Below, piece after piece: positions 35,889 to 39,664 of a stretch of 39,686 nt of DNA (position 1 is the stretch's first letter; the number at the start of each line of letters is the position of its first letter). The stretch spans positions 1-39,686 of the forward strand of contig JAGQZQ010000024.1 of NCBI GenBank assembly GCA_020435415.1, in the 5' to 3' direction. The DNA is from Flavobacteriales bacterium. GTDB lineage: Bacteria; Bacteroidota; Bacteroidia; JACJYZ01. Both the position numbers and the translations under genes were made by a program. The notes under the pieces were generated by a model that saw only the letters and a program-made list of their open reading frames with translations, was not told where the DNA came from and did no database searches.

Positions 35889-35925
35889 GTTTACGCTTTC
35901 TTAATGGAATATTTCATAAAGTTGC

Positions 35926-35933
35926 TAATTTTG
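35926..35933 (+). promoter_or_regulatory. TAnnTTTG -7 box of the small membrane protein gene
   Basis: TAATTTTG, an exact match, 31 bp before the GTG start at 35965. Supports transcription of this small gene. Confidence 0.5.
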
Positions 35934-35964
35934 CCCTCCGAATGCATCCAAATTAACGACGAAA

Positions 35965-36219
35965 GTGACCAAAATTGAACAGGAAGATACCCGGACAAAG
36001 ACAGTGATCATGAGTGGGGTCATGATTCTGGCCCTTGCCCTGGTATACTGCACTGACATATATGTCAGGCCAGCAGTGAGTGGGGATTCAAATGAAACAC
36101 CCCGTAGTCAAAATATCCAAGCCCCTTCCCCGGAAGGAAAAAACCTTGTCAGAAACAGCGAGGATCCCGCTAAACATCAGGAAACGCAAACCGTTTCTCT
36201 GACATTTCCGGGAAAATAA
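35965..36219 (+). CDS. Small single-pass membrane protein, unknown
   Basis: 84 residues from a GTG start; no in-frame ATG until residue 16. A short charged N-terminus (EQEDTRTK) is followed by one hydrophobic segment (VIMSGVMILALALVYCTDIY, about 15-34) and a polar tail of about 50 residues rich in Ser, Asn, Pro and Glu (SGDSNETPRSQN, SPEGKNLVRNSED). This would be a type II membrane protein with a disordered periplasmic tail. An exact -7 box upstream and a 7-base stop-rich array directly downstream support it being a real gene, but no family is recognised and the coding evidence is modest. Confidence 0.5.
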   Translation: MTKIEQEDTRTKTVIMSGVMILALALVYCTDIYVRPAVSGDSNETPRSQNIQAPSPEGKNLVRNSEDPAKHQETQTVSLTFPGK

Positions 36220-36228
36220 CACTTTGTA

Positions 36229-36263
36229 CTCAGTACTGAGTAGATAGTAGTTAGTAAATAGAG
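36229..36263 (+). repeat. 7-base tandem array after the small membrane protein gene
   Basis: Units CTCAGTA, CTGAGTA, GATAGTA, GTTAGTA, AATAGAG in steps of seven, starting 9 bp after the stop codon at 36217-36219. The stop-rich (AGTA/TAG) strand is the coding strand of the upstream gene. Confidence 0.8.
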
Positions 36264-36331
36264 GGGGACCTTTCTGGGAATATTGGCCATTGGCTTATAA
36301 ATTATGGCTTCAGATTAGTAACGTATCGCCT

Positions 36332-36373
36332 TTCAGAGATCCCTCGCTGCGATTCGGGATGACATAACTCTGA
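36332..36373. repeat. REP-like palindrome
   Basis: Outer arms TTCAGAG (36332-36338) and CTCTGAA (36367-36373) enclose ATCCC (36339-36343) and GGGAT (36356-36360). The core, GAGATCCCTCGCTGCG then ATTCGGGATGAC, resembles a palindromic sequence I recall as dispersed in many bacterial genomes, including Bacteroidota. Confidence 0.65.
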
Positions 36374-36404
36374 AGAGGAGAAGGAAAGAGAAAAAGGCGC
36401 GTTT

Positions 36405-36515
36405 GTATTTAGCAAATAGAATAGCTTTCCACTTGCGCCGACTATTTCCCATTGACTACTGATCACCGTCCTTTTACTAACTACTATCTACTCGCTACCA
36501 TCTACTATTTACTGG
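36405..36515 (-). repeat. Copy A of a ~110-bp direct repeat ending in a 7-base array
   Basis: Starts GTATTTAGCAAAT, like copy B at 36745, and aligns to it over its full length with one single-base gap and scattered substitutions (roughly three quarters identical by eye). The last 42 bp are six 7-base units: TTACTAA, CTACTAT, CTACTCG, CTACCAT, CTACTAT, TTACTGG (36474-36515). Confidence 0.8.
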
Positions 36516-36521
36516 AAATCC

Positions 36522-36688
36522 GGTGGTTAGGCGAAGGTTGCACCTTCGTCTGTCTATCCCGTAGCTTTAAGCTACTTGCTTCGTCTTAGCTTACACTGCT
36601 GGTAACTGAGGAAGAATTCTCAGTAGAAAACACCAAAGCGGAACGCTTTGAAGATAACAGGACGAAGGTGCAACCTTCGCCCAACACC
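36522..36688. repeat. ~167-bp hairpin-rich element with perfect 21-bp inverted ends (REP/BIME- or MITE-like)
   Basis: The sequence at 36530-36550 (GGCGAAGG to CCTTCGTC) is exactly the reverse complement of 36661-36681, and similarity continues outward to 36522 and 36688 with small gaps. Each end is itself a hairpin (GAAGGT-TGC-ACCTTC). Inside are GTAGCTT-T-AAGCTAC (36561-36575), ACTGAG/CTCAGT (36605-36624) and CAAAGCG-GAA-CGCTTTG (36634-36650). No transposase is present. A row of hairpins is typical of REP clusters moved by RAYT (TnpA-REP) enzymes; a MITE is the alternative. Confidence 0.8.
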
Positions 36689-36744
36689 TTGGTATTACCA
36701 TTCACAGACTCAATATAACTTACAATGCAAAGCGATCAACATTG

Positions 36745-36857
36745 GTATTTAGCAAATGGATATGGTTATCCACTTGTGTCTGCTATTTCCTATTGACTGT
36801 TGACCAATGTCCTTTTACTTACTACTATCTACTTACTACTATCTACTATTTACCAGA
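36745..36857 (-). repeat. Copy B of the ~110-bp direct repeat, overlapping the 3' end of valS
   Basis: Starts GTATTTAGCAAAT and ends with units TTACTTA, CTACTAT, CTACTTA, CTACTAT, CTACTAT, TTACCAG (36815-36856). The valS stop codon (36846-36848) and its last two sense codons lie within the final units, so the gene ends inside the array. Confidence 0.82.
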
Positions 36858-39473
36858 AACCGCGGCCAGCTGTGTCTCCAGTGACCTGATCCGGGCTTCG
36901 GCATCAGATTTCTTTTTCCGTTCAGCTTCAACCACTTGTTCCGGGGCATTGTCTACAAAGCGGGCGTTTCCGAGCTTTTTCTCTACCGTATTCAGGAATC
37001 CGCGTGTATACTCCAACTCCTCCTTAAGCTTATCCAGATTTCCTTCCTGGTCACCATTGGCCGGGAGCGGGAGGTACAGTTCAGTGGTTCCGGCCATCAC
37101 CACAAGAGACTGCGCCGGCTGAACATCCGCCCTTTGAAGATCACTCAGATTGGCGAGTTTGATCGTTGCGCCTTCCATCACGTTCACGTCACTCACAGCC
37201 TTATAACTGAGCGGCACTACTTCCTTGGGTGACATCTGATTCGAGGCGCGGTAATTCCTGATCTTCATCACCCAATCCTTTGTTTGCTCAAAGCGTACCA
37301 GCAGTTGCTCATCGGCCTTACTCATTTCGGGCCACAGGGCATTGATCAGATAAGGATGCTGTTCATTACTCAAGTGGCTCCATATTTCTTCAGTGATAAA
37401 TGGCATGAACGGATGCATCAGCTTAAGGAGCTCCGACAGGAAGTGTGTCGTAGCGTCCATGGTGGTTCGGTCAATCGGTGTTTCACGCGCCGGCTTTACC
37501 ATCTCCAGGTACCACGAACAGAAATCATCCCACACCAGCTTGTAGATTGTCATCAGTGCTTCGGAGAGCTTGAACCGTTCAAACTGCCCTTCAAGTTGTG
37601 CAACCGCATGTTTGAGTGCGGAATCAAACCAGGCCACTGCCTCCCTGGCGGCTTCGGATTGTTCAACTTTATCACTTACCTCCCAGCCATTCACCAGTCG
37701 GAACGCATTCCATAACTTGTTATTGAAATTCCTGCCCTGTTCACACAGGCCCTCATCGAACAGCAGATCGTTCCCGGCGGGGGAGCAAAGCAACATCCCC
37801 ACACGAACACCATCTGCACCGTATTGGGCGATTAGGTCAAGAGGATCCGGTGAATTCCCGAGGGATTTGGACATCTTGCGGCCCTGCTTATCCCTTACAA
37901 TTCCGGTGAGGTAAACATTCTTAAACGGCTTCTCCCCGCGGTATTCATACCCTGCCATGATCATCCGTGCCACCCAGAAAAAGAGAATCTCGGGGGCCGT
38001 CACCAGATCGTTGGTAGGGTAATAATATTTTATGTCTTTGTTGTCGGGATCCCTGAAACCATCAAATACGGATATCGGCCACAGCCAGGATGAGAACCAG
38101 GTATCCACCACATCCTCATCCTGTCTGATGTCATCAGCGGAAAGATTCCGTCCGCTTTTCTCACGTGCCAGACCAACAGCCTCTTCGGATGTTTTGGCCA
38201 CCACGAATTCATCCTCACCATCGCCATAGTACCATGCGGGTATCCGTTGTCCCCACCAAAGTTGTCTGGAGATACACCAATCCCGTACATTCTCCATCCA
38301 GTGCTTGTAGGTATTGATAAACTTTCCGGGAAAGAGTTCGATGTCCTTATTCAGCACGTGGTCAAGGGCGGGACCCGCCATTTCCTTCATGCTACAAAAC
38401 CACTGCAGGCTCAGTCGCGGCTCGATCACCTCGTGTGTCCTTTCGGAATAGCCAACTTTGTTGGTCAACTGCTCGGTCTTAATGAGCACACCTTCCTTTT
38501 TAAGGGCTTCAACCATTTTTTCGCGTGCATCGAAACGGTCTGTACCGACAAAATGTCCTGCCTTTTCGGAAAGGGTACCATCGGGATTGAATATGTCTAT
38601 GGTCTCAAGTTGATGACGCTTCCCAATCTCATAGTCATTCACATCGTGTGCCGGCGTGATCTTCAGCGCACCCGTACCGAACTCGCGATCCACGTAGGTA
38701 TCTGCAATCACCGGAATTTCCCGGTTAACAAGCGGTACACGCACTTTCTTACCTACAAGATGCTTGTAACGTTCGTCTTCCGGGTGTACACAAACGGCGG
38801 TATCCCCCAGGATCGTCTCGGGACGCGTGGTGGCAATCGTGAGTGATTCCTTACCATCCACTACCGGGTAAGACACATAAAAGAGCCGGGATTGTTCTTC
38901 CTTATGATAAACCTCTTCATCGGAAACGGCGGTGAGGGCTTTGGGGTCCCAGTTTACCATCCGTACACCGCGGTATATATAACCTTTCTTATACAGATCA
39001 ATAAACACATCGATCACGGCTTCGGAGAGGCTTTCATCCATGGTAAACCGGGTTCGCTCCCAATCACATGACGCGCCTAGTTTTTTGAGTTGTTCCAGAA
39101 TAATGCCTCCATGTTTCTCTTTCCACGCCCAGGCATGCTCCATGAACTTTTCCCTGGTAAGGTCCGATTTGCGGATACCTTCTTCGCGAAGCTTGGCCAC
39201 CACTTTGGCTTCGGTGGCAATAGACGCATGGTCTGTTCCGGGCACCCAACATGCATTTTTTCCCAACATCCTGGCACGGCGTACAAGCACATCCTGAATG
39301 GTGTTATTCAGCATATGCCCCATGTGCAGGACACCCGTTACGTTGGGCGGTGGGATCACGATGGTATATGCTTCGCGGTCGTCCGGTTCTGAATGAAAGA
39401 AGCCCTTCTCCATCCACAGGTCATACCATTTCTTCTCAATGGCTTCGGGCTGATATGTTTTATTGATTTCCAT
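36846..39473 (-). CDS. valS: Valyl-tRNA synthetase
   Basis: 875 residues, normal for bacterial ValRS. Class I motifs: HIGH as HMGH (50-53, after PPPNVTGVLH) and KMSKS (533-537, GRKMSKSLGNSPDPLDLI). The CP1 editing domain lies between about 190 and 350, with TTRPETILGDTAVCVHPEDE and GTGALKITPAHDVNDYEIGK, which are typical of ValRS and clear mischarged Thr-tRNA. WWGQRIPAWYYGDGE and the anticodon-binding region follow. The C-terminal coiled-coil arm is visible from about 810 (LDKLKEELEYTRGFLNTVEK), ending QLAAVSGK. It charges tRNA-Val in the cytoplasm. The 3' end lies in a 7-base repeat array, so the last two residues are repeat-encoded. Upstream is a long perfect hairpin. Confidence 0.97.
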   Translation of the reverse strand: MEINKTYQPEAIEKKWYDLWMEKGFFHSEPDDREAYTIVIPPPNVTGVLHMGHMLNNTIQDVLVRRARMLGKNACWVPGTDHASIATEAKVVAKLREEGIRKSDLTREKFMEHAWAWKEKHGGIILEQLKKLGASCDWERTRFTMDESLSEAVIDVFIDLYKKGYIYRGVRMVNWDPKALTAVSDEEVYHKEEQSRLFYVSYPVVDGKESLTIATTRPETILGDTAVCVHPEDERYKHLVGKKVRVPLVNREIPVIADTYVDREFGTGALKITPAHDVNDYEIGKRHQLETIDIFNPDGTLSEKAGHFVGTDRFDAREKMVEALKKEGVLIKTEQLTNKVGYSERTHEVIEPRLSLQWFCSMKEMAGPALDHVLNKDIELFPGKFINTYKHWMENVRDWCISRQLWWGQRIPAWYYGDGEDEFVVAKTSEEAVGLAREKSGRNLSADDIRQDEDVVDTWFSSWLWPISVFDGFRDPDNKDIKYYYPTNDLVTAPEILFFWVARMIMAGYEYRGEKPFKNVYLTGIVRDKQGRKMSKSLGNSPDPLDLIAQYGADGVRVGMLLCSPAGNDLLFDEGLCEQGRNFNNKLWNAFRLVNGWEVSDKVEQSEAAREAVAWFDSALKHAVAQLEGQFERFKLSEALMTIYKLVWDDFCSWYLEMVKPARETPIDRTTMDATTHFLSELLKLMHPFMPFITEEIWSHLSNEQHPYLINALWPEMSKADEQLLVRFEQTKDWVMKIRNYRASNQMSPKEVVPLSYKAVSDVNVMEGATIKLANLSDLQRADVQPAQSLVVMAGTTELYLPLPANGDQEGNLDKLKEELEYTRGFLNTVEKKLGNARFVDNAPEQVVEAERKKKSDAEARIRSLETQLAAVSGK

Positions 39474-39639: not shown

Positions 39640-39664
39640 CTATCCCGTAGGTTCGGGAGGGATA
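39640..39664. repeat. Short REP-like hairpin sharing an 11-mer with the 36522-36688 element
   Basis: TATCCC (39641-39646) can pair with GGGATA (39659-39664), or CCCG with CGGG inside. CTATCCCGTAG (39640-39650) also occurs exactly at 36554-36564, next to the GTAGCTT hairpin. Continuation past the window edge cannot be seen. Confidence 0.45.

Follow-up and report, generated by a model that had tools for sequence, protein, structure and literature searches.

A REPIN-like pair of two-hairpin units, probably of the atypical Bacteroidetes RAYT class, carried in an IS982-type MITE of a Flavobacteriales genome

REPINs and BIMEs are inverted pairs of REP sequences that are dispersed and mostly extragenic in genomes that also encode a RAYT, and canonical REPs carry GTAG or GTGG immediately 5' of the hairpin. 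The RAYTs of subclass 2.6 (Bertels group 5), from Bacteroidetes, are described as being flanked by atypical structures that do not contain GT[AG]G and have copies elsewhere (PMC6006769). The REPs of this subclass are called atypical, and locating them required inspection by hand (PMC6006769, section 12); its proteins are characterized by the motifs NH[LIV]H, WQ, and YIH[QN]NP and by an SS tail (PMC6006769, Table 1). In CGTC-tagged REPs, a class that includes Bacteroidetes, the stems almost invariably start with AT pairs and there is usually a CCA tail, while the class is described as apparently having no dedicated transposase (PMC3733652). Biochemical work on TnpA-REP places cleavage at CT adjoining hairpins in single strands (PMC8266576). 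Here we analyze a locus that is probably a non-autonomous element of the REPIN/BIME type, built from inverted bipartite REPs that belong with the atypical Bacteroidetes RAYTs (TnpA-REP) of subclass 2.6, and riding in an IS982-type MITE.

The window, a stretch of 39,686 nucleotides, contains a hairpin-rich element for which the original prediction, made from the DNA letters, gave limits of 36522–36688 and exact 21-bp inverted termini. Two such arms, GGCGAAGGTTGCACCTTCGTC (36530–36550) and GACGAAGGTGCAACCTTCGCC (36661–36681), are indeed exact reverse complements separated by 110 bp, and each is a small palindrome. They start 8 bp and finish 7 bp inside these limits, which are slightly wide. Many genomic matches begin at nucleotide 5 of the element or end at nucleotide 164, and we therefore set the unit at 36526–36685. 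In 20 mononucleotide shuffles of the window, no inverted pair of at least 14 bp, and so none of 21 bp, occurred within 300 bp, whereas the real window has two exact 21-bp inverted pairs at this spacing. The second pair, 36238–36258 with 36473–36493, lies in low-complexity sequence of the TAGTAGATAG type; several ends of IS982 copies and of MITEs are located in sequence of this kind. No open reading frame of at least 80 aa overlaps 36522–36688. The features of the locus are as follows.

36402–36518, + strand: local direct repeat, copy 1, 117 bp, 81% identical to 36742–36859
36526–36685, + strand: REPIN-like unit, an inverted pair of bipartite REP units (GTTAGGCG...CGCCCAAC), from its copies and the orientation of the pair
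36530–36550, + strand: left REP, palindrome P1 with TGC loop, from 46 genomic sites and pairing changes on both sides across species
36551–36560, + strand: left spacer with a conserved CTAT at 36554–36557; nearly all of 38 units in the same genome have YTAT here
36561–36575, + strand: left P2 hairpin, GTAGCTTTAAGCTAC, from P2-type hairpins that follow P1 near the RAYTs of relatives
36606–36623, + strand: small central hairpin, CTGAG...CTCAG, from the sequence and partial conservation among copies
36634–36650, - strand: right P2-like hairpin, CAAAGCGGAACGCTTTG, in the P2 place of the right-hand unit read on the - strand
36661–36681, - strand: right REP, inverted palindrome P1, from the genomic P1 sites and the shuffle test
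36686–36745, + strand: right arm of the host MITE, with an eroded end TIR at 36730–36745, from the arm common to other copies
36742–36859, + strand: local direct repeat, copy 2, overlapping the 3' end of valS, from the same comparison as copy 1
36846–39473, - strand: valS, valine--tRNA ligase, from the ORF list and its identification

In each half of the unit, a GTTRG foot leads into P1, whose loop is TGY, and a spacer of 10 nt containing YTAT separates P1 from the second hairpin P2, which on the right-hand side reads CAAAGCGTTCCGCTTTG on the other strand. The three further interior hairpins that had been predicted are present at 36561–36575, 36606–36623, and 36634–36650, and are accounted for by the two P2 hairpins and the small central one. 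By analogy with TnpA-REP, the CT dinucleotides of the left spacer are candidate cleavage sites. The foot of P1 is GTTAG, GTTGG, or GTTCG, so that no GTAG or GTGG guide stands directly 5' of the hairpin; P2 does contain GTAG, but within its stem. For this reason we do not file the feature as a canonical GTAG REP, and such a guide would not be expected if the repeats belong with subclass 2.6 as that subclass is described (PMC6006769).

The genome that contains the window (3.48 Mb, in a fragmented assembly of 194 contigs) yields 74 matches to the element, some of which are one palindrome matched on both strands. Twelve are near-full copies, the window's included, the other 11 having 77–96% identity, and many matches cover one end only. 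Palindrome P1 occurs at 46 sites with at most 3 mismatches (control, 0), and a variant of P1 with a longer hairpin tip at 13 sites (control, 0). In this variant (L072:4885-4922 and 12 more sites) the tip is swapped for a longer CCCGG...CCGGG hairpin, the loops varying while the stems are mostly retained. Six of the 12 near-full copies carry the longer tip at one end, and the ends of these copies are thus not exact mirror images. Pairing of the palindromes is strongly oriented: among 20 adjacent P1 pairs within 300 bp, 16 run + then -, none run - then +, and 4 are direct, with 32 of the 59 known P1 sites belonging to inverted pairs. The sites are mostly extragenic: 2 of 38 P1 sites (28 loci; 38 of the 59 known sites entered this test) lie in ORFs of at least 150 aa, compared with a background coverage of 72%. 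A search of 59 further genomes from the same class, all belonging to other families, gave no match to the element at E ≤ 0.001.

The existence of a dispersed family had been predicted, and it is established by these near-full copies and P1 sites rather than by the 11-mer on which the prediction had relied. The 11-mer, CTATCCCGTAG, does recur at 39640, but the copy there was rejected as a family member, as it belongs to another repeat, CTATCCCGTAGGTTCGGGAGGGATA (39640–39664). With up to 3 mismatches allowed, this other repeat occurs at 5 places in the genome. Three of these are close to contig ends (C24, C137, and C141), one being the right end of the window, and the sequence probably marks where a different mobile repeat ends and where the assembly broke. 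Since 6 of the element's 157 11-mers recur, as three overlapping pairs, and the copy at 39640 is part of a different repeat, the 11-mer provides no evidence of a dispersed family. A fragmented assembly could in principle suggest that the whole feature is a product of chance or an assembly artefact. However, shuffles yield no such inverted repeat, the window copy is 3 kb away from the end of its contig, the family is found on many contigs, and the same design occurs in named genomes, which together make this explanation extraordinarily improbable.

Four genes in the genome encode Y1_Tnp proteins, three of which score above the cut-off for the REP-associated tyrosine transposase model NF047646. 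One of them, the C30 RAYT, has two units upstream in the gene's own orientation and two inverted units downstream, with a fifth ~0.7 kb downstream, and so provides a RAYT gene with flanks matching the element, as had been proposed as a check. The other two are arranged differently. One unit, pointing the other way, lies ~350 bp upstream of the C55 RAYT, which is not flanked by inverted copies of the unit, and the C140 RAYT, which abuts a contig end, has its nearest unit at least 2.6 kb away. The C55 RAYT has a REP family of its own, AGCTGGCGCGGACGTCYCGTCC (L036:1689-2517), with four of its five sites surrounding the gene. The fourth Y1 protein, encoded on C40, was rejected as a partner because no P1 unit lies in the surrounding 5 kb; this transposase (L031:1462-1950) has the motif YVLNQPEHH, which resembles the motif given for subclass 1.2 (PMC6006769, Table 1). 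By eye, the C30 RAYT contains NHIH, YIHNNP, and SS, with WT instead of WQ, while the C55 and C140 RAYTs contain WQ and SS, but SHLH and YIHANP or YIHMNP. No PDB sequence matched the C30 RAYT at E ≤ 0.01.

Similar hairpins accompany RAYT genes in relatives. We scanned the loci of the best 80 of 309 RAYT relatives, 78 of which are from Bacteroidota as judged by record titles, for hairpins with a stem of at least 8 pairs and a loop beginning with TG no more than 700 bp from the gene. At least one hairpin of this design was present, on one or both sides, in 55 of the 80 loci; the other 25, some of which have short flanks, have none. On the gene strand, 71 hairpins were counted in 104,974 nt near the gene, whereas the 203,099 nt lying beyond 1.5 kb contained 8. 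Among 143 hairpins, 120 follow the inverted arrangement (59 upstream on the + strand and 61 downstream on the - strand) and 23 do not, and a P1-like hairpin is followed by a P2 hairpin with GTAG or TTAG in 23 of the 143 cases, against 30 of 4000 random 45-mers. As a simpler test, we took for each locus the longest exact match of one flank to the reverse complement of the other: among the 73 loci that could be used, it was 14 nt or longer in 46, whereas in the largest of 20 shuffles 14 nt was reached in four loci. Exact direct matches of 14 nt between flanks also occur in 22 of the 73 loci by our own count, perhaps because the units repeat in tandem as well. Of the cells in an alignment of 29 units (7 from this genome and 22 from elsewhere), 97.2% pair, and changes on both sides are seen in 11 of the 14 base pairs, a number that none of 500 shuffles equaled; the alignment leans towards the structure, as its units were selected for having both hairpins and related species were counted apart.

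The copies, the flanks of the C30 RAYT, the hairpins of the relatives, and the compensatory changes identify the unit as a pair of the REPIN/BIME type, with dispersed, multicopy, mostly extragenic palindromes, inverted pairing, and a RAYT flanked by matching repeats. Like REPINs and BIMEs (PMC3116915), the element is an inverted REP pair, but here each unit is two hairpins long, the copies number in the tens, and many pairs are inside a TIR element. Resemblance to subclass 2.6 lies in the NHIH and YIHNNP motifs and SS tail of the C30 RAYT, in flanking repeats with copies elsewhere, and in a main hairpin that has no GT[AG]G foot, whereas the WT of the C30 protein and the SHLH, YIHANP, and YIHMNP of the C55 and C140 proteins depart from its motifs (PMC6006769). 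The TGY loop of P1 combined with a GTAG...CTAC second hairpin, and the nesting in a MITE, are not part of the description of the subclass in section 12 of that paper. Judged by sequence, the element appears to fit a subclass-2.6-type REPIN with small motif differences, several copies of which are in an IS982-type MITE. The P1 stem leads into ...CGTC, as in CGTC-tagged REPs, but in contrast to the account of that class (PMC3733652), a RAYT is associated with the element here.

Alignment of the 12 near-full copies with their flanks showed that many are conserved past the unit, up to AACGCGTTGACCACTT and its reverse complement. Ten of the 12 match the 403-bp copy on C17 past the unit, that copy being counted, while at C17:25494 and C16:43956 the unit is matched and the arms are not. 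When up to 2 mismatches are allowed, the outer 16-mer TIR, whose third base is Y, occurs at 42 sites (control, 9). Ten contigs break off within ~460 bp of a TIR site that forms the start of either of two IS ends. The reading frames at these IS ends encode a transposase in two pieces, which hit the IS982 model NF033520 (E = 3.4e-9 and 1e-29); both are partial, scoring 36.6 and 103.9 bits, below the full-length cut-off of 130. The C-terminal piece matches DDE_Tnp_1, whereas no Pfam family matched the N-terminal one. A multicopy IS of the IS982 family, seen only as partial copies at contig ends, is resident in the genome and shares the outer 16-bp TIRs of the MITE. Past the terminal 16–18 bp, the arms of the MITE have no convincing similarity to the IS, the best match being 40 bp at 77.5%.

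Both outer TIRs are present at up to 3 mismatches in six of the 12 copies, with total lengths of 326–403 bp, and the six others, the window copy among them, do not have an intact TIR pair. In the six TIR-bearing copies, the 7-bp flanks agree at 7, 6, 6, 5, 2, and 1 positions, and in a shorter element on C34 at 6. For these seven elements 8 of 5040 permutations gave agreement as good, the length of 7 having been picked after the exact AGTAGTT duplication of C17:4588-4990 had been seen. Two of the seven have no duplication (2/7 and 1/7 agreement), and the target-site duplications that were to be looked for are thus found at most of the elements compared. As a family, the host unit therefore has the TIRs matching a resident IS982-family IS and the target-site duplication that mark a MITE. 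The original prediction had offered a REP cluster (BIME) or a MITE in need of an enzyme in trans as alternatives; with the copies, the RAYT, and the outer TIRs, both apply.

The C34 element (C34:29840-30020; L066:2341-2521) is a 181-bp version of the MITE that is without most of the REP pair but retains its last 14 nt. It looks like the product of a deletion starting at the left border of the unit, and because those 14 nt of the unit are still present, we consider it less likely to be an ancestral empty MITE than a deletion derivative. At two other places (L065:2001 and L067:2121), seen from one end, the same outer repeat stands at the start and is followed by AATACCTGACACG and later by TAACCCCGAAGGGGTGAAA; several miniature families may therefore make use of the IS982 ends.

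The window copy of the MITE is decayed, with its left arm lost and its right TIR eroded. By itself it does not have two intact TIRs: the best site on the left has 6 mismatches, and the end repeat on the right (36730–36745) has 7 of 16, which is no better than shuffles (p = 0.575), and is recognized by position alone. The element is bracketed by the direct repeats at 36402–36518 and 36742–36859, and no other full-length genomic match to the ~117-bp repeat was found. With valS on the - strand and + strand ORFs opposite, it sits between convergent 3' ends, ~160 bp past the valS stop codon. This position, together with the placement of 36 of 38 sites outside ORFs of at least 150 aa, could be taken to mean that the feature is a host-domesticated 3'-end structure, such as a bidirectional terminator or mRNA stabilizer for valS and the convergent gene, with its repeat nature secondary. 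However, no Rfam family matched 35900–37000 at E ≤ 1, many copies bear the ends of a transposon together with target duplications, and the units are concentrated near RAYTs. We therefore regard such a role as very unlikely as the primary explanation, although the element may have a secondary effect on transcripts.

The nesting raises a further explanation, in which the feature is nothing more than the central part of an IS982-type MITE whose hairpins are interior sequence captured once, with no role of a RAYT in its present spread. Arms and core do travel together in several copies, and the TIRs and target duplications suit a TIR element. On the other hand, many units are outside any recognized MITE, as singles and in other pairs, and units surround both the C30 RAYT and the RAYTs of other species, so that we find this explanation improbable, if less so than a 3'-end structure. 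The preferred reading remains a REPIN/BIME-type pair that is in part carried by a MITE. The GTAG-15 palindromes of A. variabilis are likewise REP dimers nested in a larger inverted-repeat sequence and are tied to no IS family in the section that describes them (PMC3733652, section 7), whereas the outer repeats here match a resident IS982-family IS and come with 7-bp duplications. Cardinium belongs to the Bacteroidetes. Its MITECca01 is similarly derived from IS982, and its ends resemble the ones of an IS982-family IS resident in that genome; section 4 of the account of it reports no REP or RAYT content (PMC9769881). Among the papers listed in a literature search, none was seen to describe a REP pair nested within an IS982 MITE.

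In the process that we consider most likely for the REPIN/BIME-type pair, P1 and P2 would fold in single-stranded DNA, such as the lagging-strand template. By analogy with TnpA-REP, a RAYT such as the C30 gene product would be expected to act on the single-stranded P1 and P2, binding them and nicking near the hairpins, and could then copy or transfer the unit elsewhere. One REP pair would have inserted into a miniature transposon of the IS982 type. The composite would then have been spread by IS982 transposase through its outer 16-bp repeats, leaving 7-bp target duplications; movement of the composite in trans by this transposase is expected by comparison with MITECca01 (PMC9769881). If the REP pair spreads both alone and as MITE cargo, two unrelated transposases would share one non-autonomous population. 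We tentatively suggest, as a possibility held at somewhat less than even confidence, that the element is such a doubly mobile repeat, with an HUH tyrosine REP pair spreading by itself and as cargo of a DDE (IS982) MITE, and that P1-TGY/P2-GTAG is a shared ancestral form of the subclass 2.6 REPs.

The TGY loop, the inverted flanking of the gene, and, in part of the group, the GTAG second hairpin offer a concrete substrate for work with purified RAYT protein. That REP pairs are nested in an IS982-type MITE points to a route by which a second, unrelated transposase could spread a REP pair, and bears on the persistence of REP populations.
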